Virus record (IMG/VR): IMGVR_UViG_3300009128_001408 | Coordinates: 1 to 64,000 of that record | Strand: one strand, 5' to 3' | Source of the DNA: a virus | DNA: 64,000 nt | Shown here: in pieces, positions 2,338 through 39,329 of the stretch | Numbering within the stretch: the first letter of the stretch is position 1 | Layout: every line of letters starts with the position of its first letter | Notes under the pieces: generated by a model | What the model was told of the DNA's origin: nothing | Database searches by the model: none | What the model saw: only the letters and a program-made list of their open reading frames with translations | Program-made: the position numbers and the translations under genes

Positions 2338-3189
2338 TCACCGAAGAAATTTATTAATGGCCGGGATGGCAGCCTTGGCTGGGTTGTCGGCATCGACCAT
2401 CACAAAATTATTGAACATATCCTGGTAGAGAGGAAGGTTTTCCTGGAGCTTGTGCCACTGGTCCTCCTGGCTTCCTCCGTGGACGCGTCGGCCGCCAGGC
2501 TGTTTACCTCGATCGATATTCTGCTGCTGCGCCTGCTCAAGCGGGACCGAGACAAAAAGCATCATGGTGTCATATCCCAGGGCGTCCAACATCGCCTTCT
2601 CCCGCTTTATCTTATCGTAGTTAGTAGCAGTACCATCAATTACGACACCAAGGCGACCTGTGATGTGACGCTCTAACGTTGTCAGGTTACCGGGATCCTC
2701 CTTATACTTCTGCCCGAACTCCTCAGGATCGAGATCAAGGCGTTGTGCTGATATGCCTGCGCTACCTCCTGTCACCTTTTTAAGGCCTCGCTGCTGGAGT
2801 GTCGACATCCTGGATCGGGACTTCTTGAGCTTTGCCTCAAGGTCCTTGAACTCCTTTTCCTCCTCCGCAGTACGGGCCTCGTTATCCCTTAGGGCACGAT
2901 AATCCGCGAGGAGCTTGGGATCAGGTGTTAGCTCCACCGGGGGCTTCTTATTGGGTGCCAGCTTCTCAAGAAAAGTGTCGGCATTGACAATGCGAAGTCC
3001 CTCGGGTGTGAAACCTGTATCGGTACCAAAGATGGTTCGAAGCGCGGTTCCCTTACCACTGCCAGGGGCACCCGCCATGAAAATGGCCTTGAGTCTACCG
3101 GGGTCGTGGGGACCCTCCCGTAGCAGGCACTCCTCCAGGAGGATGTCCCTGATGACCTGTCTAATAAAAGCTTGGTTCGCCAGTTGCAT
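2338..3189 (-). CDS. P-loop kinase of zeta-toxin/polynucleotide kinase type
   Basis: Walker A GAPGSGKG at about residues 40-47, followed by VNADTFLEKL (zeta-toxin-like substrate Asp region), a charged helical insert at about 90-150, and VVIDGTATNYDKI as a probable second kinase motif; Arg residues follow the lid region (NIDRGKQPGGRRV). The fold suits zeta toxins, polynucleotide kinases and small phosphotransferases. The N-terminus (QAFIRQVIRDILLEE) resembles the tag of the neighbouring proteins, hinting that this kinase may also be virion cargo. ATG at 3189; an upstream TTG is less likely. The substrate cannot be read from sequence. Confidence 0.75.
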   Translation of the reverse strand: MQLANQAFIRQVIRDILLEECLLREGPHDPGRLKAIFMAGAPGSGKGTALRTIFGTDTGFTPEGLRIVNADTFLEKLAPNKKPPVELTPDPKLLADYRALRDNEARTAEEEKEFKDLEAKLKKSRSRMSTLQQRGLKKVTGGSAGISAQRLDLDPEEFGQKYKEDPGNLTTLERHITGRLGVVIDGTATNYDKIKREKAMLDALGYDTMMLFVSVPLEQAQQQNIDRGKQPGGRRVHGGSQEDQWHKLQENLPLYQDMFNNFVMVDADNPAKAAIPAINKFLR

Positions 3190-3808
3190 TCTCAATTACC
3201 TTTCTGATAATGCTATTAAATGCCTGGGAATCGTATTCAAGGTCAGGGCCTCGTATCTTGTCTAGGATGTCCTCAATCAGAGCAGGTGCCACCTTTGCGG
3301 TGGTGTTATCAGGCATTCGCTCATCGTAGGTCAATCCTTGTGCCTCCAACTCAGCCTCAACCAGTTTAACATATTTATCCTGAAGCTCGCTCGCATATCG
3401 ATTCGCCGGGGTGCCGATCAGTGCCCTCGAGTCGTCCGTCAAATCGCTAAGCTGCAGCGTGACGCCTGTATCAACCCACCCTGTCTCCGGATCGATAGCG
3501 ACAGCGCTTGCGGTAGCATAATCACCGGAATTCGTGACGGATAGTTTGCCAGGGCTTGCGCCCCTATGGCCTGTAGGTGTCTTCTCCAGTATCGTAAATG
3601 TCGAATCGTTATTCAACAATGCTATCCAGTCTCCCAGCTCTTCGAAGGCCTGGTCGTGAGCGGCACCAAAATCTGAGCCGATCCTCACGATAGGAATTTC
3701 AGCGGGTAGGCCACCAACACTTTCGTTTATTGGAGCACCGCGATAGAACTCCCGATAGAATAGTTCCTCGCGAATAAGCTGCTTGAGTTTTGCTGTTGAT
3801 ATTTTCAT
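3161..3808 (-). CDS. tagged virion-candidate protein
   Basis: 215 residues, first 16 MKISTAKLKQLIREEL, a clear member of the N-terminal tag family found repeatedly in this window. The remainder (for example a Gly/Ser/Thr-rich region at about 75-115 and an acidic helical C-terminus) is not recognised. It overlaps the kinase gene downstream by 29 bases and the upstream tagged gene by four. A packaged or structural protein is the best guess from the tag alone. Confidence 0.65.
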   Translation of the reverse strand: MKISTAKLKQLIREELFYREFYRGAPINESVGGLPAEIPIVRIGSDFGAAHDQAFEELGDWIALLNNDSTFTILEKTPTGHRGASPGKLSVTNSGDYATASAVAIDPETGWVDTGVTLQLSDLTDDSRALIGTPANRYASELQDKYVKLVEAELEAQGLTYDERMPDNTTAKVAPALIEDILDKIRGPDLEYDSQAFNSIIRKVIENATGEPSFY

Positions 3809-4098
3809 TCTGTATCTTCCTGTGTATCTTTGTATGTCTCCCAGGCCGCGCTAACCGAAGTTACCGACCAGCCGGGGGTCGATGCAACCACATTAATGGC
3901 ATCAGTCGGAGAGTGTCCTGTACCTATCAGCTCATTGACCTGGCCAGCAATGTCCATCGCCGGATCGTTAGCCTTTGGAAACTCAAAGGATGTGGTCGGT
4001 TCCGGACGTAGGTTTGACCCACTCCGGTACCCCTGCTCGGTGATGGTGTGGATCTCCTCACGGATGATCTTCTTCAGTCTAGGCGGGGATAGTTTCAC
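3805..4098 (-). CDS. tagged virion-candidate small protein, GTG start
   Basis: The frame stays open far upstream, but the start is placed at GTG 4098 because the product then begins VKLSPPRLKKIIREEI, aligning residue for residue with the tags of its neighbours. The next gene upstream (4079-4414) ends 20 bases inside. The 97-residue remainder contains a VNELIGTGHSPTDAINVV-like helical segment reminiscent of UBA-type three-helix bundles, but no function is assigned. Confidence 0.65.
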   Translation of the reverse strand: MKLSPPRLKKIIREEIHTITEQGYRSGSNLRPEPTTSFEFPKANDPAMDIAGQVNELIGTGHSPTDAINVVASTPGWSVTSVSAAWETYKDTQEDTE

Positions 4099-4414
4099 TA
4101 GTGATATCCTCGATCTCTTCCTCTTCCGAGGGAGCATCAAACTCCAGACTATTAAGCCAATTAACCAGAGCTTTTCGGTCATCGGCATTCTTGAGCGGAA
4201 AATCCAATCCCTCACGTCGACCATCAGAACTCCAAGTGATCTCGACACCAGTTCGACCACCGACTTGTGGTCTCGCAACCCACCATTTATTTCCCACCTG
4301 TAAATGAGGATGTTTCTCGGCGCTCCAATGAAGCTCATTCTCCTTAATAAGCTGAGGCGAGTTGTCAAGCTCCTCCTTGATTATCCGCCTCAGTTGTCCT
4401 GATGTAAGTCTCAT
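4079..4414 (-). CDS. tagged virion-candidate protein
   Basis: 111 residues beginning MRLTSGQLRRIIKEEL, one of the clearest copies of the shared tag. A small globular segment with several Trp (about 29-60: W-S-A-E-K-H-P-H-L then W-W-V-A-R-P) is followed by an acidic tail. Family not recognised. It overlaps its neighbours at both ends in the tagged-gene run. Confidence 0.65.
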   Translation of the reverse strand: MRLTSGQLRRIIKEELDNSPQLIKENELHWSAEKHPHLQVGNKWWVARPQVGGRTGVEITWSSDGRREGLDFPLKNADDRKALVNWLNSLEFDAPSEEEEIEDITSETIPA

Positions 4415-4608
4415 TTCGTCTCCCTTGACTTCCTACTCCATAAGTCCTTGGGTAGCAGCTTCTCAATCTTAAAGTTTAGTGCCGGCTTGCCGTTGACAGT
4501 CGGGTGGCCGTACTCGTCCTCCCCGATCTCCCGGACGACTGTCCGCTTGTTCTTGAACCGACCTGTCAGGATGATGTCTCCCGGGCCGTATGGAAAATCA
4601 ATTTTCAT
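4411..4608 (-). CDS. small conserved phage-type protein
   Basis: 65 residues starting MKIDFPYGPGDIILTGRF, followed by N-K-R-T-V-V-R-E-I-G-E-D-E-Y-G-H-P. The pattern looks like a small beta-rich (SH3/KOW-like) domain, and similar short proteins occur in marine myophages as I recall. It sits between tagged genes with an ATGA overlap downstream. Function unknown. Confidence 0.65.
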   Translation of the reverse strand: MKIDFPYGPGDIILTGRFKNKRTVVREIGEDEYGHPTVNGKPALNFKIEKLLPKDLWSRKSRETK

Positions 4609-5154
4609 TTAAGCACCCATATCCATACTAGGTCTGGTATCTGCGAGGTCCACTGGCTTGTGATACTGGCCCAATAGAGCCTGCATTTCATCAACTGCCG
4701 TGGCCAGGTTCTCCGCAGAAATATTCTCACGACTAAGGAGGCCCAGAAGGGATGTAGGGGCTCGAGAATCTCCGCCGGCACTGTCCATCCGACGGCGGAC
4801 CATTGAAACAAGAGTGTGATCCTGGCCGCCTTTCGCTGTTTTACGTTCCCCACCTGATACCACAAGCTTCCACTTCTCGCCTGTACCAAAGTCATCACTT
4901 ATGTCTGTAACTGTAAATTTGACCACTGGCGCCTTCGTCTCTTTGCCTGCAATCCGATCGCCCTCGCTGCTGGCCCAGGCACCCAACTCAACATCATAGA
5001 GACGTGACCAATAATCAGTGGTATTACCAGGTGACCAACCTGTGTGCTCAAGAGCCCGGGGAAGACGTGACTGGGGAACGGTGCCATCCTCGATTAGGAC
5101 TGTCGATAGCTCCTCCTTGATTATCAGTCGTAACTGCCTGGGTGTTAGTTTCAT
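4609..5154 (-). CDS. tagged virion-candidate protein
   Basis: 181 residues beginning MKLTPRQLRLIIKEEL, followed by a region rich in Trp, Gly and Thr and a predicted helical C-terminus. It is the first (most upstream) gene of the tagged run 3161-5154, with a TAGGAG ribosome site before the ATG and a possible promoter at 5212-5217. No homologous family recognised outside the tag. Confidence 0.65.
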   Translation of the reverse strand: MKLTPRQLRLIIKEELSTVLIEDGTVPQSRLPRALEHTGWSPGNTTDYWSRLYDVELGAWASSEGDRIAGKETKAPVVKFTVTDISDDFGTGEKWKLVVSGGERKTAKGGQDHTLVSMVRRRMDSAGGDSRAPTSLLGLLSRENISAENLATAVDEMQALLGQYHKPVDLADTRPSMDMGA

Positions 5155-8348: not shown

Positions 8349-8576
8349 TTAGCGCGGTGTCCTGGTGTATCCTTGACGCCTGGCGACCTCCGAGGACTCA
8401 AAACAGAACTCAGCACGAGTCACGTAATAATAACTATCGGTCGGCAGATGATAGTAGAATGAATCTGCATTTCCCTTAATGCGATGATGATCTGGACATG
8501 TCCCTGTTAGACTAATTGACCAATGAGCACATCCAGAAATCAGGATCGCCATCAAGATAAGTGCTGCTCTACCCAT
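8349..8576 (-). CDS. small lipoprotein with sunset-domain-like fold
   Basis: ATG at 8576 overlaps the dnaK stop (ATGGGTAG), so translation is likely coupled. The signal ends in LISGC (Cys16), a good lipobox. The mature part has I-K-G-N...YHLP...YY...T-x-A-E-x-CF...A...GY, the pattern of the short treble-clef-like sunset domain found at the ends of exported nucleases. No catalytic domain is present. Probably an outer- or inner-membrane-anchored surface protein. Confidence 0.65.
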
Positions 8577-10434
8577 TTGCTTCCTCAAAGTCTGCATCAA
8601 TAATTTCAGTGTCTGACACGTCTTCAGGTGGATCATCTGATTGTGACTGGTACAGGAGGGTAGCAAACTCGGAAGATGCTGCCTCTAGGTCAGCTGTGGC
8701 TGTCGTAAAATCGCCATCGGCATCGAGGACAGCCCGGGCCTCGTCGATGGCGGCGGTGACTGTGGCCTTAGCCGCCTCATCGACCTTGTCACCGTGTTCC
8801 TTGACTGTCCTGGCAAGCCCGTGAATTAGTGCCTCAAGTTTATTCTTCTCTTCAATCCTTGCGCGACGTGCCTGGTCTTCCTCGGCATTTTCCTCTGCAT
8901 CCTGGACCATGGCATCTATATCGGCGTCGCTAAGAGAACCGGTCCCCTCAATCCGGATCGACTGCTCCTTGCCAGTCGCCTTGTCCTTGGCACCGACATT
9001 GACAATACCGTCGGCATCGATTGAGAATGTCACCTCAATCTGAGGGATACCTCGTGGAGCCGGCGGGAGACCTGTTAGGTTAAATCGGCCGAGAGTCTTG
9101 TTATCATTGGCAAACTGCCGCTCTCCCTGCAGGACGTGAATGTCCACTGCAGACTGGTTATCAGAAGCGGTGCTAAACGTCTCACTCTTCTCGCATGGAA
9201 TCGTGGTATTACGATCGATCAGCTTCGTCATGACACCGCCCAGTGTCTCAATACCGAGACTGAGTGGTGTAACATCAAGAAGCAGTACGTCCTTGACATC
9301 ACCCGTAAAGACTCCTCCCTGGACAGCTGCGCCAAGGGCGACAACCTCATCCGGGTTGACCGACTTATTAGCCTCCTTCTTGAAGAAGCCCTCCACGGCA
9401 GTGCGAACCGCTGGGATGCGTGTGGAACCTCCCACTAGGATAACCTCGTCGATTGCCCCGACCTTGAGGCCGGAGTCCTTTAAGGCACGCTTAACAGGCT
9501 TCATAGTCCTCTCGACAATCTCCGCCGTCAGCTGATCAAACTTAGATCGACTCAGCGTCAGCTGGAGGTGTTTAGGCCCAGTGGCATCGGCTGTCAGGAA
9601 TGGTAGATTGATCTCGGTCTGCTGTGTGCTAGACAATTCAATCTTCGCCTTCTCGGCGGCCTCCTTAACACGCTGAAGCACCATCTTATCTGACGCCAGG
9701 TCAATTCCGGTGTCGGCCTTAAACTCCGACATGATCCAAGCAATGACAATGTTGTCGAAGTCATCGCCGCCGAGGTGAGTATCACCATTAGTGGCTAGCA
9801 CCTCAATGACTCCATCACCAATCTCCAGGACAGAGATGTCAAACGTGCCACCGCCTAGGTCATAGACAACAACTGCCTGATCGTTACCCTTGTCGAGACC
9901 GTACGCCAAAGCAGCTGCGGTAGGCTCATTGATGATTCGTTTAACGTTAAGACCTGCAATCTTACCGGCATCCTTTGTCGCCTGGCGTTGTGCATCATTG
10001 AAGTAGGCAGGAACAGTAACGACCGCATCACTTATCTCCTCACCCAAGTATTCCTCGGCAGCACGCTTGAGCTTCATTAAGACCTGTGCCGAGATCTCTG
10101 GAGGTGACAGCTTCTTTCCATCCACCTCGATTGTACAAGCACCGCCCTTGCCAGATGCGATTGTATATGGCACTGACGCTGACTCAGTCTTCGCATCGCG
10201 GTACTTGCAGCCCATAAATCTCTTAACAGAGAAGATGGTGTTCTGGGGGTTTGTAATCGCCTGGCGACGGGCAGGCTGGCCGACAAGGCGCTCGCCATCC
10301 TTCGTGTAAGCTATAACAGATGGAGTAGTTCGTGAACCCTCCTCGTTAGTGATGACCGTAGGGCCGGTCGATTCCATAACGGCAACGCACGAGTTCGTGG
10401 TGCCAAGATCAATTCCAATTACTTTATTAGACAC
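8569..10434 (-). CDS. dnaK: molecular chaperone DnaK (Hsp70)
   Basis: Full-length Hsp70 of about 621 residues. The ATPase domain begins [15 protein letters not shown] and contains [15 protein letters not shown] and the [14 protein letters not shown] signature; a substrate-binding beta domain and helical lid follow, ending DADFEEANG rather than the usual acidic bacterial tail. GTG 10434 is favoured (AAAGGA ten bases upstream); ATG 10443 overlaps that site. It refolds or protects proteins with a J-domain partner, and a J-domain protein is encoded at 51347-52153. It follows the PEP carboxykinase gene by 62 bases, which include a short palindrome. Confidence 0.97.
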
Positions 10435-10458
10435 TAGTAACACATCCTTTCAGTGTAA

Positions 10459-10496: not shown

Positions 10497-12191
10497 CTAA
10501 ATTGTAGCAATAATTTTAGGGTCGACACCATGGGATCGTAGGAATTCACACCTATCTCTCTTCATCCTAGAAACCCAGTCTCGATATACTTCATTATCAA
10601 TGACAGTCACAGGATTTAAGATCGCAGCAGGAACTAGCTCCAAAAGCGCTGAGTTGACTGGATCATCCACATCAACGATATCGTAGCCAAAATCAGGATC
10701 AGTCTTCCAGGCAATAGTGCCAGCTAACATGGCCTCGAGCATTGATGATGAATGATGAATCTTAACCTTAAGATCAGCTCCAACATATCCTGTGTTCATC
10801 ATCCACAAGGCGGTGCCAGGCATCGAGGCGACAAGTTCCGAAAAACGGGACGCCTGAAGACCGAACGACCTCGGGAAGAATGGTTGTGTGAACGGAGAGC
10901 GCGTCTTACCCACCTCCTTGCCTGCGGCTGACGTCTTAGTCGTCTCGCCAAGCATAAAATATGCCGCAGCCTGGTCAGGACTGGTAAATCTTACAATGCC
11001 TGGTGTAGCAGCGTCTTGACCCTCATCGCGGTTCAAGATTCCCATGCTAGTGACAGGAGGAATATCATACAAATCAGCAACATTGTCGATTACCGACATT
11101 GGGATAACTGATCGACCGTTCTGCGTCCACTCAACGAACTCCCATCCATCCTTAATAATACCATCAGCATCAAGCGTATCGTCATAGGTAACTATACCAT
11201 CTAAGTACTGTTGTATCTTATCGGTATCAAAACCTGTGGCTTCTAGAACCGACCTAAACCGCTCTACGTCTAATTGGGACATTCGCTTCTTATCGAAGTC
11301 ATATGCGCCAGATTCGCCTACAAAAGTATTCTCAACCCATGCCAGTGAATTTAATGTCCCATCGTATATAATAGGCTCGCTACTCCTAGTAAGACCTGCT
11401 GTCTTTGCAAAGCACCCAGACTCAGTCACTGACATTTCTCCGGACGGCCAAATCGTAACCATGTCATCCTGTATCGGCTGTGTCAGGTCTCCCTGCTGCG
11501 AAAAAGTCGTTGTCGTCTTTCCTGTACCAGACAGTCCCATAATAGTCATTGACATTCTCTCACCGGCTGATTCAATAAGCTTTGCGCCGGCATGAAGCAC
11601 TAATCCGCCACGCTGGTAGGCATAATCATTCAGCATTCGAAGTGCTGCCTTCTTAGACTCACCGAAATAATCAGGACCGATGATGTAGGTTCGATAGCTC
11701 TTAAGGTCGACAAGGATCGCTTGCCGGCCTGGCATGTCCTCAAGGAACAGATTAGGTGTGTAGATCACCTGAAACTCTGGCGTAAACTCTGGTGAGAAAT
11801 CCAAAAATGTCATGTGTGACTGCATACCTGCAATATTTGCACCTTCCAGTGTATAAAGCCACTGGACAGGAACAGCCCGATCACCTACACCGAGAGATCC
11901 CCTAATATCTATCAGGCGGCCGGCATCCTCAATGTACTGCCGCTGTATATCAATCAGCACCTGCGCCTTGGCTGGCGAGATTACCTGATGGGAGTACTGA
12001 TCAGCATTCACCTCATTGTCAATCACATATGTGTACTTTGCCATCCGCGCCTTATTTCGACTAACCTTCATAAGGTTGCCGTGTTCAGTCACAATGGTGC
12101 AGGGGGTGTGTGCAATTGCCAGCTCACGCAAGTGATCCTGGGTTGGGTTTATTAAATAGTTAACATCAAAGGGTCTGACATTGTGTGCCAT
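10497..12191 (-). CDS. pckA: phosphoenolpyruvate carboxykinase (ATP-type, divergent)
   Basis: Catalyses oxaloacetate + ATP to PEP + CO2 + ADP, the first committed step of gluconeogenesis. The PEPCK P-loop GLSGTGKTT lies near residues 219-227, followed by QDDMVTIWPSG (kinase-2/metal region) and SGCFAKTAGL, then MNTGYVGAD. The oxaloacetate-binding segment is the variant SRNKARMAKYTYVID instead of TGRSPKDK, as in a divergent COG1866 branch. Length is 564 residues against about 540 for E. coli. ATG 12191 is preceded by AAGGAAAAG and lies 10 bases after the aceA stop; the longer frame upstream only overlaps aceA. It forms one block with aceB and aceA. Confidence 0.92.
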   Translation of the reverse strand: MAHNVRPFDVNYLINPTQDHLRELAIAHTPCTIVTEHGNLMKVSRNKARMAKYTYVIDNEVNADQYSHQVISPAKAQVLIDIQRQYIEDAGRLIDIRGSLGVGDRAVPVQWLYTLEGANIAGMQSHMTFLDFSPEFTPEFQVIYTPNLFLEDMPGRQAILVDLKSYRTYIIGPDYFGESKKAALRMLNDYAYQRGGLVLHAGAKLIESAGERMSMTIMGLSGTGKTTTTFSQQGDLTQPIQDDMVTIWPSGEMSVTESGCFAKTAGLTRSSEPIIYDGTLNSLAWVENTFVGESGAYDFDKKRMSQLDVERFRSVLEATGFDTDKIQQYLDGIVTYDDTLDADGIIKDGWEFVEWTQNGRSVIPMSVIDNVADLYDIPPVTSMGILNRDEGQDAATPGIVRFTSPDQAAAYFMLGETTKTSAAGKEVGKTRSPFTQPFFPRSFGLQASRFSELVASMPGTALWMMNTGYVGADLKVKIHHSSSMLEAMLAGTIAWKTDPDFGYDIVDVDDPVNSALLELVPAAILNPVTVIDNEVYRDWVSRMKRDRCEFLRSHGVDPKIIATI

Positions 12192-12201
12192 AATCTTTTC
12201 C

Positions 12202-13479
12202 TTAAAACTGCTCTGACTCCGTAGATTCCGCCATGGCAGTTGTAGAAGAGGTGCCGCCTGATATAACTCCGGTGACATCATCAAAGTATCCGGTTCCAAC
12301 CTCACGCTGGTGCTTAACAGCAGTGTAACCGACATTCACCTGATTAAATTCGTGATTCTGTAACGCTGAGTATGCTTTCATCCCGTGCTCCAGGTAACCC
12401 CTCGCAAGATCAAACATTCCCATATTAAGAGAGTGAAATCCTGCTAATGTCACAAACTGAAATGTGTATCCCATCTCAGCAAGTTGTCCCTGAAATGACC
12501 TGATATCTGGTGGGCTCAAGTGTTTGGACCAGTTAAATGAGGGTGAGCAATTATATGCCAACATCTTTCCAGGAAACTCGGCATGAATGGCATCGGCAAA
12601 TCGGCGTGCCTCATCAATACTGGGTGTTGATGTCTCACACCAGATTAGGTCAGCATAAGGAGCATAGGCGAGACCACGCGCGATGGCAACGTCCAGGCCT
12701 CCCGTAATCCTAAAGAATCCCTCAGGTGTCCTATCAAGCTGCCCGTCAGTAGCGGTAATAAACTGGCGATCCCTCTCGTCAATATCCGATGTCAAAAGTT
12801 TGGCACTATTAGCATCAGTCCTGGCAATAAGGATCGTGGGTGTGTCCATCACGTCAGCCGCAAGACGTGCAGCCTTAAGAGTGCGCAGGAAGTGTGATGT
12901 GGGGACCAGAACCTTGCCGCCTAAGTGACCGCACTTCTTCTCAGAGCTAAGCTGGTCCTCAAAGTGGACGCCGGCTGCTCCTGCCTCGATCATGGCCTTC
13001 ATCATCTCAAAGGCATTGAGGGGCCCACCGAAACCAGCCTCAGCGTCTGCGACAATCGGAACAAACCAGTCACGGGTGACATCACCCTCGGAACTCTCGA
13101 CCTGGTCAGCTCTCTGAAGGGCCTGATTTATCTTCTTAACGACATTGGGAACGCTGTTTGCAGGGTACAGGCTCTGATCCGGATACATATGGCCTGACAG
13201 GTTATTGTCGGCAGCGACTTGCCAGCCGCTTACGTAAATTCCCTGGAGACCTGCCCTTGCCTGCTGGACAGCCTGGTTGCCTGTAAGAGCTCCCAAAGCC
13301 CTGACGGCATCGGTGTCTGGATTGATCATGGCACTCCATAACCTTTCGGCGCCCTTTCGTGCAAGTGTGTGTTCTACCCTTACGCTCCCACGAAGACGTT
13401 CAACGTCCTTCTGGGTGTAATCCCTCTGTATTCCAGTCCATCTGTCAGTTGTCAATTTACCTAGTCTCCCGTAGGTCAT
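12202..13479 (-). CDS. aceA: isocitrate lyase
   Basis: Splits isocitrate to succinate and glyoxylate, the first glyoxylate-shunt enzyme. The catalytic loop KKCGHLGGK is intact (Cys at about residue 183), as are [47 protein letters not shown] and the C-terminal TGYFD...GGTSS. It is about 425 residues, like the 434-residue E. coli enzyme, and very similar to bacterial proteins along its whole length, which suggests fairly recent capture. ATG 13479 lies 23 bases inside the end of aceB, indicating coupled translation. Confidence 0.96.
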
Positions 13480-15049
13480 GCCTTGGTTCCAACATGTCGT
13501 ACGCATCCAATGTTAAGAACGACGCAAAGTCACTCGTTAGTGCGGTGTCGCGAAGAATCTCGGCCGCATCGTCAATCCTACTATCCCTTAAGTCAGTTGT
13601 TTCTTCCTTAATGGCAGTCACCGCATTTTTAATGTAATTATCCACTAGTCGCATGGTCACTGGCTCCCCATTCGAGAGGTTCACGCCATGATAAACCCAC
13701 TGCCAAATCTGCGCCCTTGAAATCTCGGCTGTGGCAGCGTCCTCCATCATATTATACAATGGAACACATCCAGCGCCACGTAACCATGATTCTATATATC
13801 TCAACGACACGTCAATATTCTTAACTAGCCCGCCAACAGTTCGCCTACCAATTGTCGGTGGCTCGCGAAGGTCCGCTGCTGTCACGGTTGTATTAAATCG
13901 TGGCACCGACATAATCTGATTCGACGTTGGCATATGAGTGTCAAAAATATCCCTAGCCAGGGAGACAAGCGCGGGATGTGCCACCCACGTGCCGTCATGC
14001 CCCATCTTCACCTCTCGAAGCTTATCTTTGCGAACGGCGCCCAATGCTCGATCATTGGCCTCTTCGTCTCCCTTAATCGGGATCTGTGCCGCCATACCCC
14101 CCATGGCGTGGGCCCCCCTGCGGTGACATGTGTCGATCAGGCGGCGAACATAGGCATTCATGAATGGTGACTCCATGGTGACGTCTGATCTGTCTGGCAA
14201 AATGTACTGCTCATCGTGGCCGATAGTCTTAATATAACTAAAGATATAGTCCCACCTCCCGCAGTTAAGACCAGCAGAGTGTTCACGAAGTGCAAACAGT
14301 ATCTCCTCCATCTGATAAGCTGCCGGGAGGGTCTCAATCAGAACAGTCGCCCTGATTGTCCCGATAGGAATTTTTACGTAGCTTTGGGCAAAACTAAACA
14401 CTTGGTTCCACCAGGCAGCTTCCTGCGCTGACTCCAGCTTAGGAAGATAGAAATAAGGACCTGTATCACGGTCAATGAGCTCCTGCGCATTATGAAAGAA
14501 GTAGAGGCCAAAATCAACAAGACTAGCCGGGATGGGCTCATCACCAAACAGAATATTACACTCGTCTAAATGCAGGCCCCTGGGACGAACCATTAGTACT
14601 GCGGGCTGATCATTCAAGTGATATGTTCCCTTAGTTGGATGCTCGAACGTTATATCACGCCTGACAGCATCACGAAGATTCTGCTGGCCCTCCATAACAT
14701 TACTCCACGTGGGCGACAGGGAGTCCTCGAAGTCAGCCATAAACGCCTGAGCGCCTGAGTTGAGGGCATTTATCACCATCTTTCGATCAGTCGGACCTGT
14801 AATCTCAACCCGGCGATCTTGGAGGTCATCTGGAATCTTTGCAACTGTCCATTTCGCCGAACGAATATCAGCCGTGGTAAACGGATAGTCCAAATTAGTA
14901 CCCGACTCATGTCGCCACTCCGACATCCTCTCTCGATTTTCTAAAAGATCATTTCGTAGGGGTGTAAACATCGCCGACAGTGCTTCCAAAAATGCCAGCG
15001 CATCTGGGGTTAAAATATCCTGGTACTTTTCAGCAGCGGTCACTCTCAT
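13457..15049 (-). CDS. aceB: malate synthase A
   Basis: Condenses glyoxylate and acetyl-CoA to malate, completing the shunt. The family signature [15 protein letters not shown] is present, with the substrate Arg in MVRPRG at about residue 155 and the catalytic-base Asp in [11 protein letters not shown] at about 437, as in the A-type enzyme. It is about 530 residues (E. coli AceB 533) with no disruption. ATG 15049 overlaps the endolysin stop (TGATG), so the metabolic block is fused translationally to a lysis gene. This argues against assembly chimerism. Confidence 0.96.
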
Positions 15050-15978
15050 CACTTTGTCATCTCCTTCACATCGGCAAGCATTCCAACTAAATCAAGACCT
15101 GCGCAGTCAATCTTATTTCTCGTCAAATTATAATGATTAACGAATCCCTCAAATCGATTCTTAGTGCACTCCTTAGAGACAGTAGTTATGAGCTTGCCGT
15201 CATCATCAGTAGGGCACTCAAATGGTATGTCAGTGGCGCGATGCACAGCCACCCAAAGAGCCTTTAATGCCTGGAGTTGTACTGGATAGAAGTCCATAAA
15301 CGGCTTCATGGATTGGCCGTGACACTGGGCACCTTCAACTAGGGGGCGCCTATTAAATCCTCGTCGAACATACGTGTCCTGATACTTTGGATAGTAAGCG
15401 TTACTGATCTCGACGCCGATGCTGGAATGGTTCCAGGCTCGACCTGAGGCATGCCACGCAGTGTGCTGAGTGTCTAGAAGCTGGTAGATTGTGCCATCAT
15501 TATCTATGCAGAAATGAATTGATATACCTCGTTTATTAAGGACCTGTGAACACGATTTAGCGGAAAGACAGACATCCCAGTGATTGACAAAAAACTTAGG
15601 CTTTCGATCTGGTTTTCCTGCATAGGACGTATAGTTTCCGTCCTTAGCCGCCAATCCGCCTTCCTCATCCCACAGCACAACTGAGTCCCAATCGATGGGA
15701 AAGAAGTTGCCATTATGGACGATGTGATTGTTGGAGGACAACTTCATGGACCTGACAGCTATGGCCTCTGCGTCGCTAATATTCGACTCACGTTCTGTCC
15801 AAACCCGACGATATGTCATTGGACCGACTAGCCCATCTGCAGTCAAGCCTATACCGCGCTGCCACTTTCTAACAGCTTTCACCAGGTCCTCGTCAAACTC
15901 CTCAGCGCCGAACCAGCTAGGATCCCATCCAAGCTTAGCGGCTGATGCCTCATTATAAAAATTCTTATCAATTGCCAT
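15049..15978 (-). CDS. endolysin: N-acetylmuramoyl-L-alanine amidase with peptidoglycan-binding domain
   Basis: An N-terminal peptidoglycan-binding domain (WQRGIGLTADGLVGPMTYR, about residues 38-58) precedes an Amidase_2 domain with zinc-ligand candidates in VNHWDVC, SIHFCIDNDG, QHTAWHAS and the final NHYNLTRNKIDC. The amidase cuts the lactyl-L-Ala bond of peptidoglycan at lysis. No signal peptide is seen, so a holin would be needed; a candidate lies at 40952-41140. The gene overlaps the GIY-YIG gene upstream by 11 bases. Confidence 0.9.
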   Translation of the reverse strand: MAIDKNFYNEASAAKLGWDPSWFGAEEFDEDLVKAVRKWQRGIGLTADGLVGPMTYRRVWTERESNISDAEAIAVRSMKLSSNNHIVHNGNFFPIDWDSVVLWDEEGGLAAKDGNYTSYAGKPDRKPKFFVNHWDVCLSAKSCSQVLNKRGISIHFCIDNDGTIYQLLDTQHTAWHASGRAWNHSSIGVEISNAYYPKYQDTYVRRGFNRRPLVEGAQCHGQSMKPFMDFYPVQLQALKALWVAVHRATDIPFECPTDDDGKLITTVSKECTKNRFEGFVNHYNLTRNKIDCAGLDLVGMLADVKEMTK

Positions 15979-16246
15979 TTAAATCTCTCCTAAGATACTC
16001 CTTGATAATCATTAACTTTTTCTTCCTGGAGAGTGACTTTATCCGGCGCTCCTCTCTGAGCGCAGCAGACTGGGTCATCTCAGGACCTGCGTAGACAATA
16101 CTAACAGGTCGACGGGACCTTGTATATTTGGCACCACGACCTGAATTGTGCGTACGAACTCTTCTAGATATGTCCGTCGACACCCCTGTATAGAGGGTAT
16201 CATCCGAACACCTAACGATATATACATACCACGACCTGGAACTCAT
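15968..16246 (-). CDS. GIY-YIG nuclease (YhbQ/UvrC-N type)
   Basis: A 92-residue single-domain protein with WYVYIVRCSDDTLYTGVSTD (GIY-YIG strands), the conserved Arg in ISRRVRTHNSGRGAKYTRSRRPV, and Glu in LREERRIKSLSRKKK. This is the YhbQ/UPF0213 layout. It may process DNA repair or recombination intermediates; no intron or homing context is visible. ATG overlaps the upstream gene stop. Confidence 0.85.
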   Translation of the reverse strand: MSSRSWYVYIVRCSDDTLYTGVSTDISRRVRTHNSGRGAKYTRSRRPVSIVYAGPEMTQSAALREERRIKSLSRKKKLMIIKEYLRRDLNGN

Positions 16247-17259
16247 CTGAGATTTATGTGAGTCAATCCCTCGGTGGTGCCGGATGATGTCTGCTCAACA
16301 AACCGCGCCTTAGCTCTAAACTCGCGCAAGTCTCGAGCGCCGGTGTATGAAAGCCCACTCCTAATTCCCGTCTTTATCTCGTACAGTTTCTCAGCGACTC
16401 CACCTCGATATGGAACCGTAGATGAGACGCCCTCAATGGAGGCCGTATGGCCTCGCCACTCGATCTGAGCGTCCTTGCTAGCCATTCCTCGATATACCTT
16501 TCTCTTCTGTCCCTTTACAAAGATAGCGTCTCCAGGCGTCTCGGCATGCCCAGCCAGCATAGAGCCCAGCATAACAAAATCAGCGCCGGCAGCGAGAGCC
16601 TTGACAATATCACCTGACGTCCTCAGTCCACCGTCAGCAATTAACTTGGCATTCCTATCGGACGACGCGCAGCTAATAATTGACTCAAGCGTTGGCATGC
16701 CGTGGCCTGTCTGGGTGCGGGTGGAGCAGATACTACCACCACCAATGCCAACACGAATAGAGTCGGCGCCCCAGTCGGCCAAGTCATTAAATGCGTCAAG
16801 AGTTGCAACATTGCCTGCCATGATGTGAACGGCGTCTCCAAAAATTTCCCGAAGATCGGAAAGCATCTTCTTCATCAGGATATGATGGCCATGTGCAATA
16901 TCAACGCACAGAATATGGACACCAGCATCGTAAAGAGCAGTAGCACGCTCTAAGTGTGCGCTCCCCACTCCAATTGCAGCTGCAACATGAACTGTTCCAA
17001 TATCACGAGTCTTTTTAACAATCGCGACCTGCTGTTTCACTGAATTGTACCTGTGAATCACGCCCAGGCCCCCGATGTCCTCCATAGCACGGGCCATATA
17101 GTGCTCCGTGACGGTGTCCATGGGACTGGATATAATCGGGACATCCAAAGTGAGAGCGTCAGGTCGAAGCTCGGAACTGATATCAATCTCCGATCGACTC
17201 TTGATAGCAGAAAACTGTGGAACTAATAGGACATCATCAAAGCAGATTGTCTTTTTCAT
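16243..17259 (-). CDS. IMP dehydrogenase / GMP reductase family enzyme
   Basis: A (beta/alpha)8 barrel of 338 residues without the CBS pair of normal IMP dehydrogenase. The catalytic Cys loop reads GIGGGSICSTRTQTGHGMP (Cys about residue 178), and a flap segment reads IEGVSSTVPYRGG. GMP reductase converts GMP to IMP and IMPDH makes XMP from IMP; the length favours GMP reductase and the flap is ambiguous. Either would change purine pools during DNA synthesis. It is coupled with GIY-YIG and phosphoesterase neighbours by ATGA-type overlaps. Confidence 0.88.
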   Translation of the reverse strand: MKKTICFDDVLLVPQFSAIKSRSEIDISSELRPDALTLDVPIISSPMDTVTEHYMARAMEDIGGLGVIHRYNSVKQQVAIVKKTRDIGTVHVAAAIGVGSAHLERATALYDAGVHILCVDIAHGHHILMKKMLSDLREIFGDAVHIMAGNVATLDAFNDLADWGADSIRVGIGGGSICSTRTQTGHGMPTLESIISCASSDRNAKLIADGGLRTSGDIVKALAAGADFVMLGSMLAGHAETPGDAIFVKGQKRKVYRGMASKDAQIEWRGHTASIEGVSSTVPYRGGVAEKLYEIKTGIRSGLSYTGARDLREFRAKARFVEQTSSGTTEGLTHINLR

Positions 17260-19670: not shown

Positions 19671-20195
19671 TTAAAAACTATCTGGCTGTTCCAGGTCAGG
19701 CTGTTGTCTGTAATCTACTGTTATCTCGTCACCAGCCGCAATATCCTGGAGGGCGAATAGCCTTCGGACGCCGCGGCGGAGTACATTGCCAGCATTCGGC
19801 TCGTCACTATGATTGTGAAATGCTCCAAGATTTGTGGGGATATAACTGTTGGCTGCAGCGATGTGTGAGATCCCAAGATTAGTTCCCGCCGGGATATCGG
19901 CCGAGGCGAAGACACCGGTGCCATGAACACCTGAATCCTGAAGGTGCATAGGTACTGTCTGTTCGATGGCCAGCTCCTGCTGGACACCATCTGGATTTTT
20001 ACAGTGCCACTTGATATGGTCCTCATAGTCCTTGATGGACACCTGGCCATCGGAGTCTAAATCAAAGTGGTGAAACAGTTCCATCGGTGTTAGATTACCG
20101 TCACCGTTGGGATCTAGGGGAGAGGCGGGTGAACCGGTCTCCTCATTAATAACAGTCTCGATTACGTGGCGAAGCGCCCCCTTGTTAATTTTCAT
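19671..20195 (-). CDS. EF-hand pair fused to SET domain, tagged N-terminus
   Basis: Residues 1-19 (MKINKGALRHVIETVINEE) look like an extended version of the window's shared tag. Two well-formed EF-hand loops follow, D28-x-N-x-D-x-N...E39 and D45-x-D-x-D-x-Q...D56, suggesting calcium binding. The C-terminal half is a SET domain: HGTGVFASADIPAG, GAFHNHSDEPNAGN and GDEITVDYR. ATG 20195; the GTG before it is not needed. A calcium-responsive lysine methyltransferase, possibly injected with the DNA, is the inference. Confidence 0.75.
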   Translation of the reverse strand: MKINKGALRHVIETVINEETGSPASPLDPNGDGNLTPMELFHHFDLDSDGQVSIKDYEDHIKWHCKNPDGVQQELAIEQTVPMHLQDSGVHGTGVFASADIPAGTNLGISHIAAANSYIPTNLGAFHNHSDEPNAGNVLRRGVRRLFALQDIAAGDEITVDYRQQPDLEQPDSF

Positions 20196-20622
20196 CACTA
20201 CCCCTAAGTAGCTTAGCCACCTTTATAAGATGTCCCCCAACAAACTTAAAGTCTGACGCCAGGTCCTGTCCAATCTCGGCGCCGAGTTGCCCGGCAGCAA
20301 CTCTGGTCTCTCCTGCAAGGTCGACCATCGACTCGAACTGCTCTTCCGTGGCAGTCTCAGCTGCCAGGACATCCCTCTCAATGCCTAGGAGCTCGTCGAC
20401 AGCTCGCATGGCCTTAAGAGCTAGGTCAACGTGGTGCTGTTCACTCATCTCATCCTTAAGCTTGACAAATGCCTTGACGGCACCCGGGCACAGATCAAAG
20501 TTCTCAGATGTGTAATCCCCAAACGCGACCTGCTCACCGAGGCCACCTTCTGTCTGTTCGGCCAGCCAAGGAGACAACTCCTCAGTCAGTATACTCTTAA
20601 GCTGGGACTTTCTTATTCTCAT
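20185..20622 (-). CDS. tagged virion-candidate helical protein
   Basis: The start is placed at ATG 20622 because the product then begins MRIRKSQLKSILTEEL, a full tag, with AGGAAAGACTAGG just upstream. The 145-residue remainder is mostly helical (heptad-like Leu, Val, Ala and acidic residues) and includes a central DELLGIERDVLAAE segment. It resembles a small helical bundle. Function unknown; the tag suggests packaging. Confidence 0.65.
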   Translation of the reverse strand: MRIRKSQLKSILTEELSPWLAEQTEGGLGEQVAFGDYTSENFDLCPGAVKAFVKLKDEMSEQHHVDLALKAMRAVDELLGIERDVLAAETATEEQFESMVDLAGETRVAAGQLGAEIGQDLASDFKFVGGHLIKVAKLLRGSDEN

Positions 20623-20710: not shown

Positions 20711-20958
20711 GGTAACCTTTCGTACCAGGGGCCCATCGGCCTTTCCTCAGTTGCAAGGTCCATGCCATGGCATCGCTGTACATCGGCACCAAAGCCGTAC
20801 TGGTGATCGTTAAAGTACTTCTCCCACTCCTCATCGATTATAGGGACGCCCTCAATCCGACGTCGAGGATTTATAATCTTTCGTTCAGTCACAATCCTCC
20901 CATTTGCCTTCTTGGAACTTATCATGACCTCCTTCTGGTTGGCTGACTTCTTTTTCAT
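20707..20958 (-). CDS. small basic hypothetical protein
   Basis: 83 residues: a Lys-rich N-terminus, a central PRRRIEGVPIIDEEWEKYFND segment and a Gly/Pro/Trp-containing tail. No motif recognised. It shares its start or stop junction with the genes on both sides, so it belongs to the same transcription unit as the nucleotidyltransferase. Confidence 0.6.
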   Translation of the reverse strand: MKKKSANQKEVMISSKKANGRIVTERKIINPRRRIEGVPIIDEEWEKYFNDHQYGFGADVQRCHGMDLATEERPMGPWYERLP

Positions 20959-21317
20959 CAGGCATCGCCTCGCAGGTACAGGTGAATATCATTGAGGTGT
21001 GTCAAGGCAGCCGCAAGCTTTACATCGACCCAGTCCGGTAGATCATCTCGACCCGCCAGAGCGGACTCAATCTTGGATGATAGCGAACTGACCTCACGAA
21101 GCACGGTACGTGCCATGTCATTCCCATCATCGTGTGACTCTGTCGTAGGCTCGTGACAGCCACAGCCCTCGTCTGCGCCTAGAATAAGATCATTGGGAGG
21201 ATCAAAATTGGAGGATGCCCTAGATTCTGGATCTGGACTACCTCGATGCCTCGGATTATCCAACTCACCAAGCTCTTCCTTTAAAATTGCTGCTAGTTCA
21301 CTCTTTAGTATTTTCAT
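20958..21317 (-). CDS. possible internal-start product: tagged 119-residue protein
   Basis: ATG 21317 lies in frame within the nucleotidyltransferase gene, eight bases after AGGAGG at 21326-21331. The product would begin with a complete 16-residue tag, exactly where all other tags sit: at the N-terminus. It contains a Cys/His-bearing G-C-G-C-H-E segment and the DLPDWV helical module. Independent expression is inferred from the ribosome site and the tag placement. Confidence 0.5.
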   Translation of the reverse strand: MKILKSELAAILKEELGELDNPRHRGSPDPESRASSNFDPPNDLILGADEGCGCHEPTTESHDDGNDMARTVLREVSSLSSKIESALAGRDDLPDWVDVKLAAALTHLNDIHLYLRGDA

Positions 21318-22022
21318 ATTATACCCCTCCTGAGCAACGGACAATGATATGTCTCTGTCGGATCTCTCAGTGTCGGCGAGGCGATCCAAGTAGCCCCTCC
21401 GCCTGAGCTCTTTAAAGGCTAAATTCTCCACGGAAAACTCGCCTGCATTACTTAACCCTGTTTTTCTCATATTGGCCAGCTTCTCACGCAAGCCTGTGAT
21501 GTGCATCGCCCTATCTGAACGCTGAAGTGTGTCATCAATCAGAGCCATGAGAGACTCCACTTTCTGTACCACAGATGCCGGATCGACACTTGGTTCCGTT
21601 CGAGTCGGCTGGATCACCCACTTGTCTCGAAGGACGCTATAGACACCTGTCGAATGATGTAACTCAGAAGCATCCTGAGGATATACCTCGACGTCATGAC
21701 CCTTGATAGTGATATTGTGCCTGAGGTTCCACAGCGACTTCTTGGCCATTAGCATTTGACTAACAAGATCTAGATCTTCGTCTATTGAAGAATAATCCAT
21801 TATAACATGGAGATCTAGGTCACTCTCAGGTGTGTAGTTAAAATTAGCCATGCTTCCTGTGACAGTTATATCCTCAGGTGTGGCTTCGATACCAAGACTA
21901 ATCAAAAACTCAGCCGCGATGCGAAGAAGTGCCTTCCTAGCACCACGTCGCATAGTGCTATCATCCCATATCTCAGGGTCTAGCACATCATGAACTAATG
22001 GCGAGGAATCGGGTCCAGACAT
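20958..22022 (-). CDS. MNT-type nucleotidyltransferase fused in frame to a tagged C-terminal domain
   Basis: The N-terminal part has the nucleotidyltransferase-superfamily active-site pattern GSMANFNYTPESDLDLHVI (Gly-Ser then Asp-x-Asp), followed by EVYP (third acidic site region). The C-terminal part, from residue 236, begins MKILKSELAAILKEEL, the shared tag, and ends with the small helical DLPDWVDVKLAAALTHLNDI module known from marine-phage virion proteins. An excellent ribosome site precedes Met236. One gene may therefore yield both a 354-residue fusion and a 119-residue tagged protein. Confidence 0.75.
   Translation of the reverse strand: MSGPDSSPLVHDVLDPEIWDDSTMRRGARKALLRIAAEFLISLGIEATPEDITVTGSMANFNYTPESDLDLHVIMDYSSIDEDLDLVSQMLMAKKSLWNLRHNITIKGHDVEVYPQDASELHHSTGVYSVLRDKWVIQPTRTEPSVDPASVVQKVESLMALIDDTLQRSDRAMHITGLREKLANMRKTGLSNAGEFSVENLAFKELRRRGYLDRLADTERSDRDISLSVAQEGYNMKILKSELAAILKEELGELDNPRHRGSPDPESRASSNFDPPNDLILGADEGCGCHEPTTESHDDGNDMARTVLREVSSLSSKIESALAGRDDLPDWVDVKLAAALTHLNDIHLYLRGDA
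21324..21331 (-). promoter_or_regulatory. internal Shine-Dalgarno AGGAGGGG
   Basis: An ideal ribosome-binding sequence inside a coding region, eight bases (from AGGAGG) before the in-frame ATG 21317. It supports internal initiation of the tagged product. Confidence 0.6.
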
Positions 22023-22387
22023 TATCCTGGTCCTGATATAACAAATCGTTTTCCGCCCTTACGAAGGACAGGTGCATTTTCCCTAGTGTCAATCCTTATG
22101 GTTCGAATACCCTTCAGTTTAAGGGTGTCAGCAATCTCATGGACCTGGTCGACAGGCGACTTAGCATCAGGTACGAACCTAATTTTAATATTAAGCCTTG
22201 CTCGTCCTGAAGCACCTTTATCGGCTGGATCCTGCTGGGTCGCTGTTGCGACGCCCTGCGCAATCCTAATTGCAGTCAGCGTCTCAGATATATTGACTTT
22301 TTTGGCCAGCTCGAGTGTCACATCAAAATCGATCAGTCGAAGCTCAGTCTCTTTCGTCTGACGCTCTTCAAATAACAGGTCTTTCAT
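22022..22387 (-). CDS. hypothetical protein with ferredoxin-like features
   Basis: ATG 22387 (MKDLLFEERQ) or ATG 22399. About 121 residues with the segment LIDFDVTLELAKKVNISETLTAIRI followed by a disordered Gln/Asp stretch and a strand-helix-strand (LNIKIRFVP...VDQVHEIADTLKLKGIRTIRI), a ferredoxin-like pattern. I recall similar proteins in marine phages but cannot name a role. Its stop overlaps the nucleotidyltransferase start. Confidence 0.6.
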   Translation of the reverse strand: MKDLLFEERQTKETELRLIDFDVTLELAKKVNISETLTAIRIAQGVATATQQDPADKGASGRARLNIKIRFVPDAKSPVDQVHEIADTLKLKGIRTIRIDTRENAPVLRKGGKRFVISGPG

Positions 22388-22429
22388 AATCGAAACCATC
22401 CAATAAAATAATTATCAACGATACACCAA

Positions 22430-23254
22430 TTAATCAGCACCAAATAAAAATTCCTCAACCTGAGGGATTATTTTAGCACGAATTATCTTTACCGTCTCAG
22501 CAGGGCTGGATGTAATAAACGACCTACCCTCAGTTCGATACTTCTCGTATATCTCGTAGTCATTGCCCCCAGGCGTGCAACTGTCACCCACAAACCAAAC
22601 GGCCGGGTCGTTGTAGTGGCGCAGGCAAAATGTCTTATCCCATCCAGCGGGAAATATATCGAAACTAGTCTGTCCGCCATACTTTATCACAATCCCATCA
22701 ACATCAGCCATGGCCAGCTCAAGGCCCACTTTTAAACCAGTTCGAATATTGTGCTGCGTATCGGCCTCTATGAAGAGATTTCGATCATCGAAATCTGCAC
22801 ACCTTCCAATAGGGCACCAGTTAAGCAGGGATCCTCGATAGTCAACAAAATTACCGCACATTGGCAGATTGTAGACAGGCGCAATTTTAGTGGCGAATTT
22901 AAGCTGGCCCAGCTGGACCTCTGCCAACAGTTTTTGAAAACTAGTCTCACCAATCTCGTCTCGCATAGACACCGATGATGACATCATAATCTTTTGCTCT
23001 GATGCATCCCAGTAATAATGCTGGGTGCCATTGCACGGAAGCAGGTCAATATTTTCGGTAACGGAACTGGGTGCTTGTTCAAAAAATGGTGCCAACTGCT
23101 CCTCAATAAGTGAGACCGGGCTTCCGGTCACCAATCCGATGTGAGAGGCCTCAGAAAGCTCTATCAGGACATCTATCATCGTCGACCCGATTTTTCGTCG
23201 TGGCTCCGTCAGAGTGCCGTCTATGTCAAAGAGGACAATCGTAGCGTCGTCCAT
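22430..23254 (-). CDS. phosphomannomutase, eukaryote-type HAD family (PMM2-like)
   Basis: Interconverts mannose-6-phosphate and mannose-1-phosphate, the precursor of GDP-sugars. The HAD nucleophile motif DIDGTLT is at residues 10-16; GNFVDYRGSLLNWCPIGR and GGQTSFDIFPAGWDKT match the substrate-binding and cap motifs of the eukaryotic-type PMM family, with FVGDSCTPGGND as the final metal motif. It is 274 residues, close to human PMM2 at about 246. A role in modifying surface or DNA sugars, or in carbon rerouting, is inferred. Confidence 0.85.
   Translation of the reverse strand: MDDATIVLFDIDGTLTEPRRKIGSTMIDVLIELSEASHIGLVTGSPVSLIEEQLAPFFEQAPSSVTENIDLLPCNGTQHYYWDASEQKIMMSSSVSMRDEIGETSFQKLLAEVQLGQLKFATKIAPVYNLPMCGNFVDYRGSLLNWCPIGRCADFDDRNLFIEADTQHNIRTGLKVGLELAMADVDGIVIKYGGQTSFDIFPAGWDKTFCLRHYNDPAVWFVGDSCTPGGNDYEIYEKYRTEGRSFITSSPAETVKIIRAKIIPQVEEFLFGAD

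Positions 23255-29192: not shown

Positions 29193-29194
<2 letters not shown>
29187..29194 (-). promoter_or_regulatory. recurring gap motif ATACTTAT
   Basis: ATACTTAT on the gene strand, partly overlapping the groEL stop and 24 bases before the GTG at 29162. One of five copies of ATA[TC]TTAT. Confidence 0.3.
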
Positions 29195-30797
<1,603 letters not shown>

Positions 30798-37671: not shown

Positions 37672-39309
37672 CTATTTCTTCAATTTCTCAGCGTGTTTTT
37701 GGTGCTTTTTAAATGCCTGCCCCACGGTTTCAAGAACTTCTCTGGCCATTTCATTTCCCTCAAATGTCTCAACAACGTCCTCAGTCTGCTTAATGTATCC
37801 ATCGGCAGCATCCTTTGTAAACGTCCTGAGTAGACGGGAGACATCATCCTCAAACTCCTTTAGTCTGACATTGATTTTCTTGGCATTTCTAAGTATTATC
37901 TCTGGATTTTCCTCTTCAAGCTTGGTGTATTCACTTTGTTTTGTGGGGACATTCTCCGCACCAAATTCGGCTTCATATTCAGCTCTTCGTGACTTATCAG
38001 TAGCAGACGGAAGACCTACATAGCCACCTGCGCCGGGCTTAAGTTTCACATCTTCAAACCCACCCAAAAGCACCTCGGAAAAAATCCTTTTAGACAGCTC
38101 AGCGAAGCTTTCATTATCCATAAACTCCAAGCCAAAGGCGTCATATAATTCCCTTAAAACCATCTCATTTTGGGACTGGGACTTATCCTGATAGGGCTCA
38201 ACGCTAAGATCTCCATTATAAAGCGACGTAAAAACAAAGGACTTCACACCTGTCCTAAATAATTGATTAAAGCTCATTACAAGTAGAGGTAAGAGTTTTT
38301 CATATGCGCTCTTCTTCTCGGGAATAACCACACCTTTGTTGTCAAAAAAGTATCTAATTCCTAAATTCTCATTAAACCTGCCCAAAACATTCCTAATTGC
38401 GCTAACGCCCATTTTAACGCCCTCGGCCTTAAGCTGCTCAGAAATCTTCTTTAATAGTTCAGACTCAGAGCCAGTCTTACCAGTAGCTGCCCTATCCTTG
38501 CTTCCCTTATATGCGGCCTCATGTGCATCAGTCCAGAAAGGTGGGCCCAGTTTTCTCAATGCGCTAATATCACCAGGAAGATAAGCGCGCTGAACATCTC
38601 TAATAATATCATCTGCCCTAGAGTCATCAGTTTTCTCAAATTCGACATACATGTCACTGATCTCTTCCATAGGCTTCTCACCAAGCCGCCTTATAATCCA
38701 TGGACTCATCATTCGAAAATCACTCCAAGGATCCCTATAGTCTAAACCTTCTCGATTAAACCCATCTAAAGCTTCCTGCTGGGACGATTGTTCCACAAGT
38801 ACCTGTCTAACAGTCTTCCTAACCCGATGCTCTGTTACCTGCGTTTGGGCGATACGCCTGATCCTCTCAGCGACTGTGACATCCACCTGGTCCTCGGCAT
38901 TTGCCTCCTCCTGGTCGGCACGCTCCAGCTCCTGGTCGGGACTCGGCTCTGGCATCATATCTGTCTGGTCCTCACCGGCTCGGTCCTGCTGTCGAATCGA
39001 TGTGGTGACGAGCCTCCTGAGCTTGTGATAGAAGTCCTGGACCTGGAGTGGCGGCACGTTCTGAACAAGGACGTTGGCTGCGTGCTGAAGCTGTTGGAGG
39101 TTTCCTGGTAGGAACTCGGCGTCATTGACAGGCGGATCGACCATCTCATCGCCGATCATGGCGGCTATGTTAACAGGAAGGTCGTGCACAGGAAGCTCCT
39201 GGACAGCGGCTGGTGCCTCTTCGGCTGCCTGCATATGGGTTTCATCGGCCTCAGTTCCCGGTGCGTCCAGGCGCTCCCTCAGGACCCTTCTAAGTTGTTT
39301 GTAATCCAT
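37672..39309 (-). CDS. large tagged virion-candidate protein
   Basis: ATG 39309 is preceded by TAGGAG at five bases and gives MDYKQLRRVLRERL, a variant tag. Residues about 20-130 are Gln/Glu-rich and then about 400 residues are helical and Lys/Arg/Glu-rich without a recognisable domain. The 545-residue size and its place in the virion-candidate run suggest a structural or injected protein. Confidence 0.6.
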   Translation of the reverse strand: MDYKQLRRVLRERLDAPGTEADETHMQAAEEAPAAVQELPVHDLPVNIAAMIGDEMVDPPVNDAEFLPGNLQQLQHAANVLVQNVPPLQVQDFYHKLRRLVTTSIRQQDRAGEDQTDMMPEPSPDQELERADQEEANAEDQVDVTVAERIRRIAQTQVTEHRVRKTVRQVLVEQSSQQEALDGFNREGLDYRDPWSDFRMMSPWIIRRLGEKPMEEISDMYVEFEKTDDSRADDIIRDVQRAYLPGDISALRKLGPPFWTDAHEAAYKGSKDRAATGKTGSESELLKKISEQLKAEGVKMGVSAIRNVLGRFNENLGIRYFFDNKGVVIPEKKSAYEKLLPLLVMSFNQLFRTGVKSFVFTSLYNGDLSVEPYQDKSQSQNEMVLRELYDAFGLEFMDNESFAELSKRIFSEVLLGGFEDVKLKPGAGGYVGLPSATDKSRRAEYEAEFGAENVPTKQSEYTKLEEENPEIILRNAKKINVRLKEFEDDVSRLLRTFTKDAADGYIKQTEDVVETFEGNEMAREVLETVGQAFKKHQKHAEKLKK

Positions 39310-39329
39310 GTCTACTCCTAGCACTCCAG

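Follow-up and report, generated by a model that had tools for sequence, protein, structure and literature searches.

A phage nucleotidyltransferase gene fused in frame to a small tagged-protein gene that retains its own ribosome-binding site and start codon

Phages are known to use in-frame nested starts, as in gene 21 of T4 (PMC9026906) and in many endolysins (PMC9430671). Gene 21 encodes gp21 and, from a second in-frame start at Met45, gp21s (PMC9026906). The internal head proteins of T4 carry N-terminal capsid-targeting propeptides of 10-19 residues, which are removed by gp21 after the motif L/I-x-E (PMC9026906). Finally, a nucleotidyltransferase (NTase) of the phrog_36119 type, ORF156 of the Synechococcus phage S-CREM2 (L026; 126012-126725), has been detected in CsCl-purified virions by 6 peptides covering 15.2% of the protein (PMC10665884, Table 3); it is listed as 'hypothetical protein' in that virion proteome (PMC10665884).

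Here we describe a homologue of ORF156 that is joined to a tagged protein. The window, i.e., the whole stretch of DNA that was analysed, covers 64.0 kb of an IMG/VR phage contig of 66.1 kb, in which the minus strand carries nearly all genes. The features of the locus are as follows.

20958..22022, (-): whole fused ORF, 354 aa
21339..22022, (-): NTase domain, residues 1-228, with a GS-x10-DxD motif followed by VEVY
21318..21338, (-): linker VAQEGYN, residues 229-235, corresponding to the translated ribosome-binding region
21326..21331, (-): internal Shine-Dalgarno (SD) sequence AGGAGG, ending 8 nt before the ATG
21270..21317, (-): Met236 start and tag MKILKSELAAILKEEL, recognised by its rank in the tag profile and its L/I-x-E motif
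20973..21149, (-): C-terminal helical-hairpin module (..MARTVLREV..DLPDWVDVKLAAALTHLNDIHLYL), from profile and model
20961..21317, (-): predicted separate 119-aa tagged product, with stand-alone orthologues at L194:5543-5911 and L008:2303-2692
22022..22399, (-): upstream gene, 125 aa, whose stop overlaps the NTase start (TAATG)
22430..23254, (-): phosphomannomutase/HAD-like gene (PF03332, E 5e-38), the synteny anchor

Upstream of the fused ORF, the phosphomannomutase-type gene is the second gene, and only the 125-aa gene (22022-22399) is situated between the two. The original prediction had been that Met236 of the NTase gene opens a perfect tag, that it is preceded by an SD sequence at ideal spacing, and that a 119-residue tagged part begins there. 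The sequence agrees on all these points: Met236 is located at 21317 (-) and begins MKILKSELAAILKEEL, it is preceded by CAGGAGGGGTATAAT with AGGAGG ending 8 nt before the ATG, and the length from Met236 onwards is 119 aa.

Residues 10-228 of the fused ORF match positions 21-246/247 of the phrog_36119 profile (E 6e-46), and a profile built without the window recovers the same residues with an E-value of 2e-77. In view of this near-full-length match and of the GS..DxD catalytic motif, the NTase part is, from its sequence, a complete phage nucleotidyltransferase domain of phrog_36119 with predicted activity. Members of this family, as represented by 13 homologues in phage records and 80 in IMG/VR, usually end in '..DKxLSL' plus a few residues; the equivalent in the window is '..RDISLS', which is followed by VAQEGYN. 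Because the NTase usually ends just before this point in some 80 relatives, the 7-residue linker is read as a translated ribosome-binding site. Comparison with solved folds gave weak AadA/ANT and MNT matches as the nearest ones, none reaching E <= 0.001, and among viral structure predictions several of the best matches are longer multi-domain proteins. The view that the NTase is an antibiotic-modifying enzyme was not adopted, given that the AadA/ANT match is not significant and that the family is borne by phage virions; a role in a defence system (PADLOC) was rejected, as only weak matches to a short part of the fold were obtained. Through the mass-spectrometry record of its homologue, a large, widespread and uncharacterised phage NTase family gains a place in the virion.

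The second part of the ORF has a different origin. A profile of its C-terminal module that was built without the window (the WVQSKIT virion-protein module) hits the fused ORF with an E-value of 7e-13. This helical-hairpin module is widespread in T4-like phages and is found in many short stand-alone proteins that start with a tag; a relative is contained in the S-SM2 protein annotated T4-like GC 119, and the member of that cluster in S-B68 (GC0119) has a structural annotation. No second copy of the module was found within the window. Of most relevance is a 122-aa stand-alone gene of IMGVR_UViG_3300025168_000032 (L194; 5543-5911), MKLTAKLLKQIIKEEL..CGC..DNLPEWVESKITLANDYI... Its tag is of the same class, it has an SD of its own (AAGGAG), a stop codon in the same frame lies directly 5' of its ATG, and the neighbouring gene is a 41% homologue of the phosphomannomutase-type gene of the window. 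The 119-aa part of the window aligns with the 122-aa protein from end to end (BLASTP E 1e-11). Because this orthologue is stand-alone and syntenic, the short protein evidently once had a separate gene, and the fused state is the derived one. A synteny search anchored on the helicase yielded relatives at 43-54% identity in which neither the NTase nor the tagged gene was present, and a scan of genome contigs found no relative.

The AF2 model of the fused ORF contains a confident NTase domain at residues 10-228 (pLDDT mostly >90), a helix at 229-254 that runs over linker and tag, a disordered stretch at 260-297 and a helical hairpin at 299-350; as modelled, this is the picture expected of two joined proteins. 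Two alternatives had been put forward for the locus, namely that a cargo gene was fused downstream of an enzyme, or that one gene gives a full-length fusion and a separate tagged product. The comparison with relatives, in which the NTase ends at about residue 228 and the tagged part is stand-alone in L194, bears out the first; the second is compatible with it and, as we infer from the intact ribosome-binding site (RBS) and start, likely. At the level of sequence comparison, the fusion and the separate ancestry of both parts have thereby been shown, and a recent fusion is the best reading.

It could be argued that the stop codon between two genes was erased by an assembly or sequencing error, considering that the data are metagenomic and that a single population shows the fusion. 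However, a second contig, IMGVR_UViG_3300008627_001279 (L002/L009), encodes an identical fused protein with the same junction, and it differs from the window by 59 SNPs and no indels over 16.6 kb. Five of these SNPs fall within the fused gene; all are confined to its NTase part and none alters the protein. The fusion is therefore not an assembly slip, and we consider an error very improbable. Apart from this sister contig, no relative was found in which the NTase is fused to the tagged module.

The SD and ATG of the downstream gene are intact in the fusion. The energy of the SD/anti-SD duplex at Met236 is -10.8 kcal/mol, assuming an E. coli-type anti-SD; for the NTase's own start it is only -4.0 kcal/mol, a weak value, and the median of the gene starts in the window is -5.9 kcal/mol. 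An SD as strong as that of Met236 precedes 5 of the 83 gene starts in the window. Among internal ATGs, its value is reached by 1 of 294 in frame, which is Met236 itself, and by 7 of 611 out of frame. The start region is also open, with a mean unpaired probability of 0.64 vs a median of 0.44 at internal ATGs, 3.7% of which are equally open. With respect to the features that describe internal starts in endolysins (PMC9430671), Met236 is residue 236 of 354 and hence outside the first and last 20 residues; it lies outside the conserved domains, the NTase profile ending at 228 and the module starting near 292; and it stands clearly above the within-gene background in SD energy and accessibility, which were used here instead of the RBS Calculator of that study.

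A strong SD taken alone is a roughly 1% event at internal ATGs, a frequency that would leave some room for a tag-like sequence arisen by chance within one ordinary protein. At Met236, though, the SD coincides with a tag, a family boundary and a stand-alone orthologue, and the L194 orthologue by itself already contradicts that explanation, which we regard as the most improbable of those considered. The coincidence of strong SD, tag and domain boundary is not due to chance.

We infer the use of Met236, as we do capsid targeting, cleavage of the tag and a virion role for the NTase. Since the old RBS and start codon of the downstream gene are intact, two products are likely, and one gene probably yields both the 354-aa fusion and the 119-aa tagged protein. 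A start at Met236 in a fused gene is seen in one phage population, represented by the window and one near-identical contig. Among 80 NTases, 13 have C-terminal extensions of at least 50 aa, of several unrelated kinds, and all of these other 13 lack a strong SD at the tag or at the junction. Internal initiation is thus not general among NTase fusions, and the window is special in retaining a full RBS. This bears on the alternative that the 354-aa fusion is the sole product, the internal SD and Met236 being unused relics of a very recent fusion that are masked by translating ribosomes. Fusions without an RBS at the junction indicate that fusion alone can be viable, and the two contigs are too alike to reveal selection on the SD. 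On the other hand, few sites in the window match Met236 in the strength of the SD and the openness of the start region; in phage endolysins, internal starts within the frame that had been predicted on this kind of basis proved to be used (PMC9430671); and the start of the fusion itself is weak. We therefore find it unlikely that the fusion is the only product.

The tag itself can be placed among those of the window. When all 65,453 six-frame 16-mers of the window are scored with a profile derived from six other window tags, the tag at Met236 ranks 8th. All seven sites that outrank it mark the beginning of a separate gene, being located at its start codon or one residue past it (number 7, at 44068, comes after an ATG at 44071), and the site ranked just below it, at 39315, precedes an ATG at 39309 by two residues. 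Because these sites of similar rank sit at the starts of separate genes, the earlier statement that tags elsewhere are always N-terminal holds. A GTG-initiated tag at 4098 was considered as a second nested case and rejected: a 94-codon open frame extends upstream of it, but the true upstream gene (4414-4082) is in a different frame. Five adjoining tagged genes form a cluster at 2338-5154 (-) of the window; the one at 2338-3195 has a zeta-toxin/AAA_33-like kinase domain and the other four have no Pfam match. A further tagged protein (MKINKGALRHVIETVINEE; 19671-20198, (-)) combines an EF-hand with a SET domain (PF00856, E 3e-10), a eukaryote-like domain pair behind a capsid-type tag.

In the window tag, LKE at positions 12-14 fits the L/I-x-E motif, and both in the L194 protein and in the predicted short product the tag is N-terminal and ends with this motif. 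By analogy with T4, it is most likely a capsid-targeting propeptide of the T4 type with a prohead-protease site at its end (LKE|E), the predicted cut most likely being made after LKE (Glu249). No prohead protease (PF03420) was found on the 66-kb fragment, which is incomplete. In S-CREM2, an N-terminal L/I-x-E is present in 8 of 13 virion-detected vs 15 of 86 undetected proteins (p 0.0016), in a test that covered two genome regions with the structural gene cluster left out, that was designed after the tags had been seen, with the motif chosen afterwards, and in which the ISE of ORF156 itself sits just ahead of the positions scanned. By this analogy, the link between tag and virion is supported, not proved, for the phage of the window.

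One of the extended NTases, an independent fusion in L101 (IMGVR_UViG_3300008259_003948), is a single frame of 709 aa in which the NTase is followed by the tag KESRIKRLINEDL and by cargo whose M23-type domain was assigned by eye; there is no good internal ATG with an SD at its tag. Such an arrangement would be in line with a polyprotein: mainly the fusion would be made, its internal tag would direct it to the prohead, and cleavage by the prohead protease after LKE would free the NTase and the small protein, with internal initiation playing a minor part. The NTase family is virion-borne (PMC10665884) and cleavage after L/I-x-E is established in T4 (PMC9026906), which is also in line with it; yet the capsid-targeting sequences of T4 work at the N-terminus, and a full RBS is kept in the window although a polyprotein would not need one. 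In our opinion, a locus that works mainly in this manner is quite unlikely.

The explanation that we favour, and consider likely, is an in-frame fusion in which the old start has been retained, giving products of 354 and 119 aa, and in which the tag doubles as a prohead-protease site. By comparison with relatives, the stop between a virion-type NTase gene and the small tagged virion-protein gene following it was most likely lost. Such a loss needs little change, because upstream stops are often close to the next start in this genome: for 70 starts there are 31 cases of a stop within the interval from 25 nt upstream to 10 nt downstream of the start that follows. The 354-aa fusion would be started from its weak, coupled site, and initiation at Met236 would supply more of the 119-aa tagged protein. 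The short product would have the tag at its N-terminus, as usual; in the fusion, the tag would be an internal, cleavable joint between enzyme and tagged protein, which could carry an otherwise untagged enzyme into the head. A possible though doubtful elaboration is a head polyprotein that brings its own helper: by co-assembling with the same domain of the fusion, the 119-aa product from the internal start would take the untagged enzyme into the prohead, and the maturation protease would cut the internal tag, freeing the enzyme for injection. If this were true, a single frame would govern the dose of a virion enzyme as well as its packaging.

The same fragment carries several metabolic and chaperone genes. 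Malate synthase (13457-15052, (-); PF01274, E 4e-108), isocitrate lyase (12202-13506, (-); PF00463, E 2e-105) and ATP-PEP carboxykinase (10497-12335, (-); PF01293, E 9e-47) are adjacent and amount to a complete glyoxylate shunt plus the entry into gluconeogenesis on a phage contig (window 10497-15052). The sister contig IMGVR_UViG_3300008627_001279 spans malate synthase and part of isocitrate lyase. Among phage records, the malate synthase matches only four, all bacterial-looking, and the isocitrate lyase has a 54% homologue in one 156-kb record (Phage C48C1). Putative DnaK-like and GroEL-like chaperones, named from their sequence, and an IMPDH/GMP-reductase-like enzyme (PF00478) are encoded at 8569-10443, 16243-17259 and 29193-30797 (-).

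In summary, domain fusion and the in-frame nested start are each of a known kind, and what is new here is the virion-cargo setting. The locus appears to be a gene fusion caught at a stage at which the old translation start is still intact. It suggests a route by which phages make multi-domain virion proteins from neighbouring cargo genes, and it leads to the prediction that a capsid-targeting, protease-cleaved tag may act inside a protein and not solely at its N-terminus. T4 gene 21, which is also related to the head, yields a shorter C-terminal product from a second start in its frame (PMC9026906), as predicted for the locus of the window; however, both of its forms belong to one ancestral protein, whereas the predicted short form in the window is an unrelated protein, once encoded by a separate gene, behind an enzyme. 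The endolysins made as two polypeptides share with the window an inter-domain start and a strong RBS and, as predicted for the window, a full-length and a C-terminal polypeptide from one frame (PMC9430671), but they belong to phages of Gram-positive bacteria and their parts form one enzyme; the window product is predicted virion cargo and its parts do not. The capsid-targeting sequences of T4 resemble the window tag as short N-terminal propeptides that end with L/I-x-E on small head proteins (PMC9026906). The class of the window tag, M-K-x-T-x-x-x-L-x-x-I-I-K-E-E-L, is in contrast not that of T4, its copy in the long product is internal, and its cleavage is predicted. With phrog_36119 NTases such as the virion-associated ORF156 of S-CREM2, the window protein shares the whole domain and the catalytic motif; unlike them, it lacks an N-terminal tag and has a C-terminal tagged protein of 119 aa. 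L101 is similar in its NTase family, in its junction and in an L/I-x-E tag followed by in-frame cargo, but it differs in the cargo itself and in that its tag lacks an internal ATG preceded by an SD, which the window has retained.
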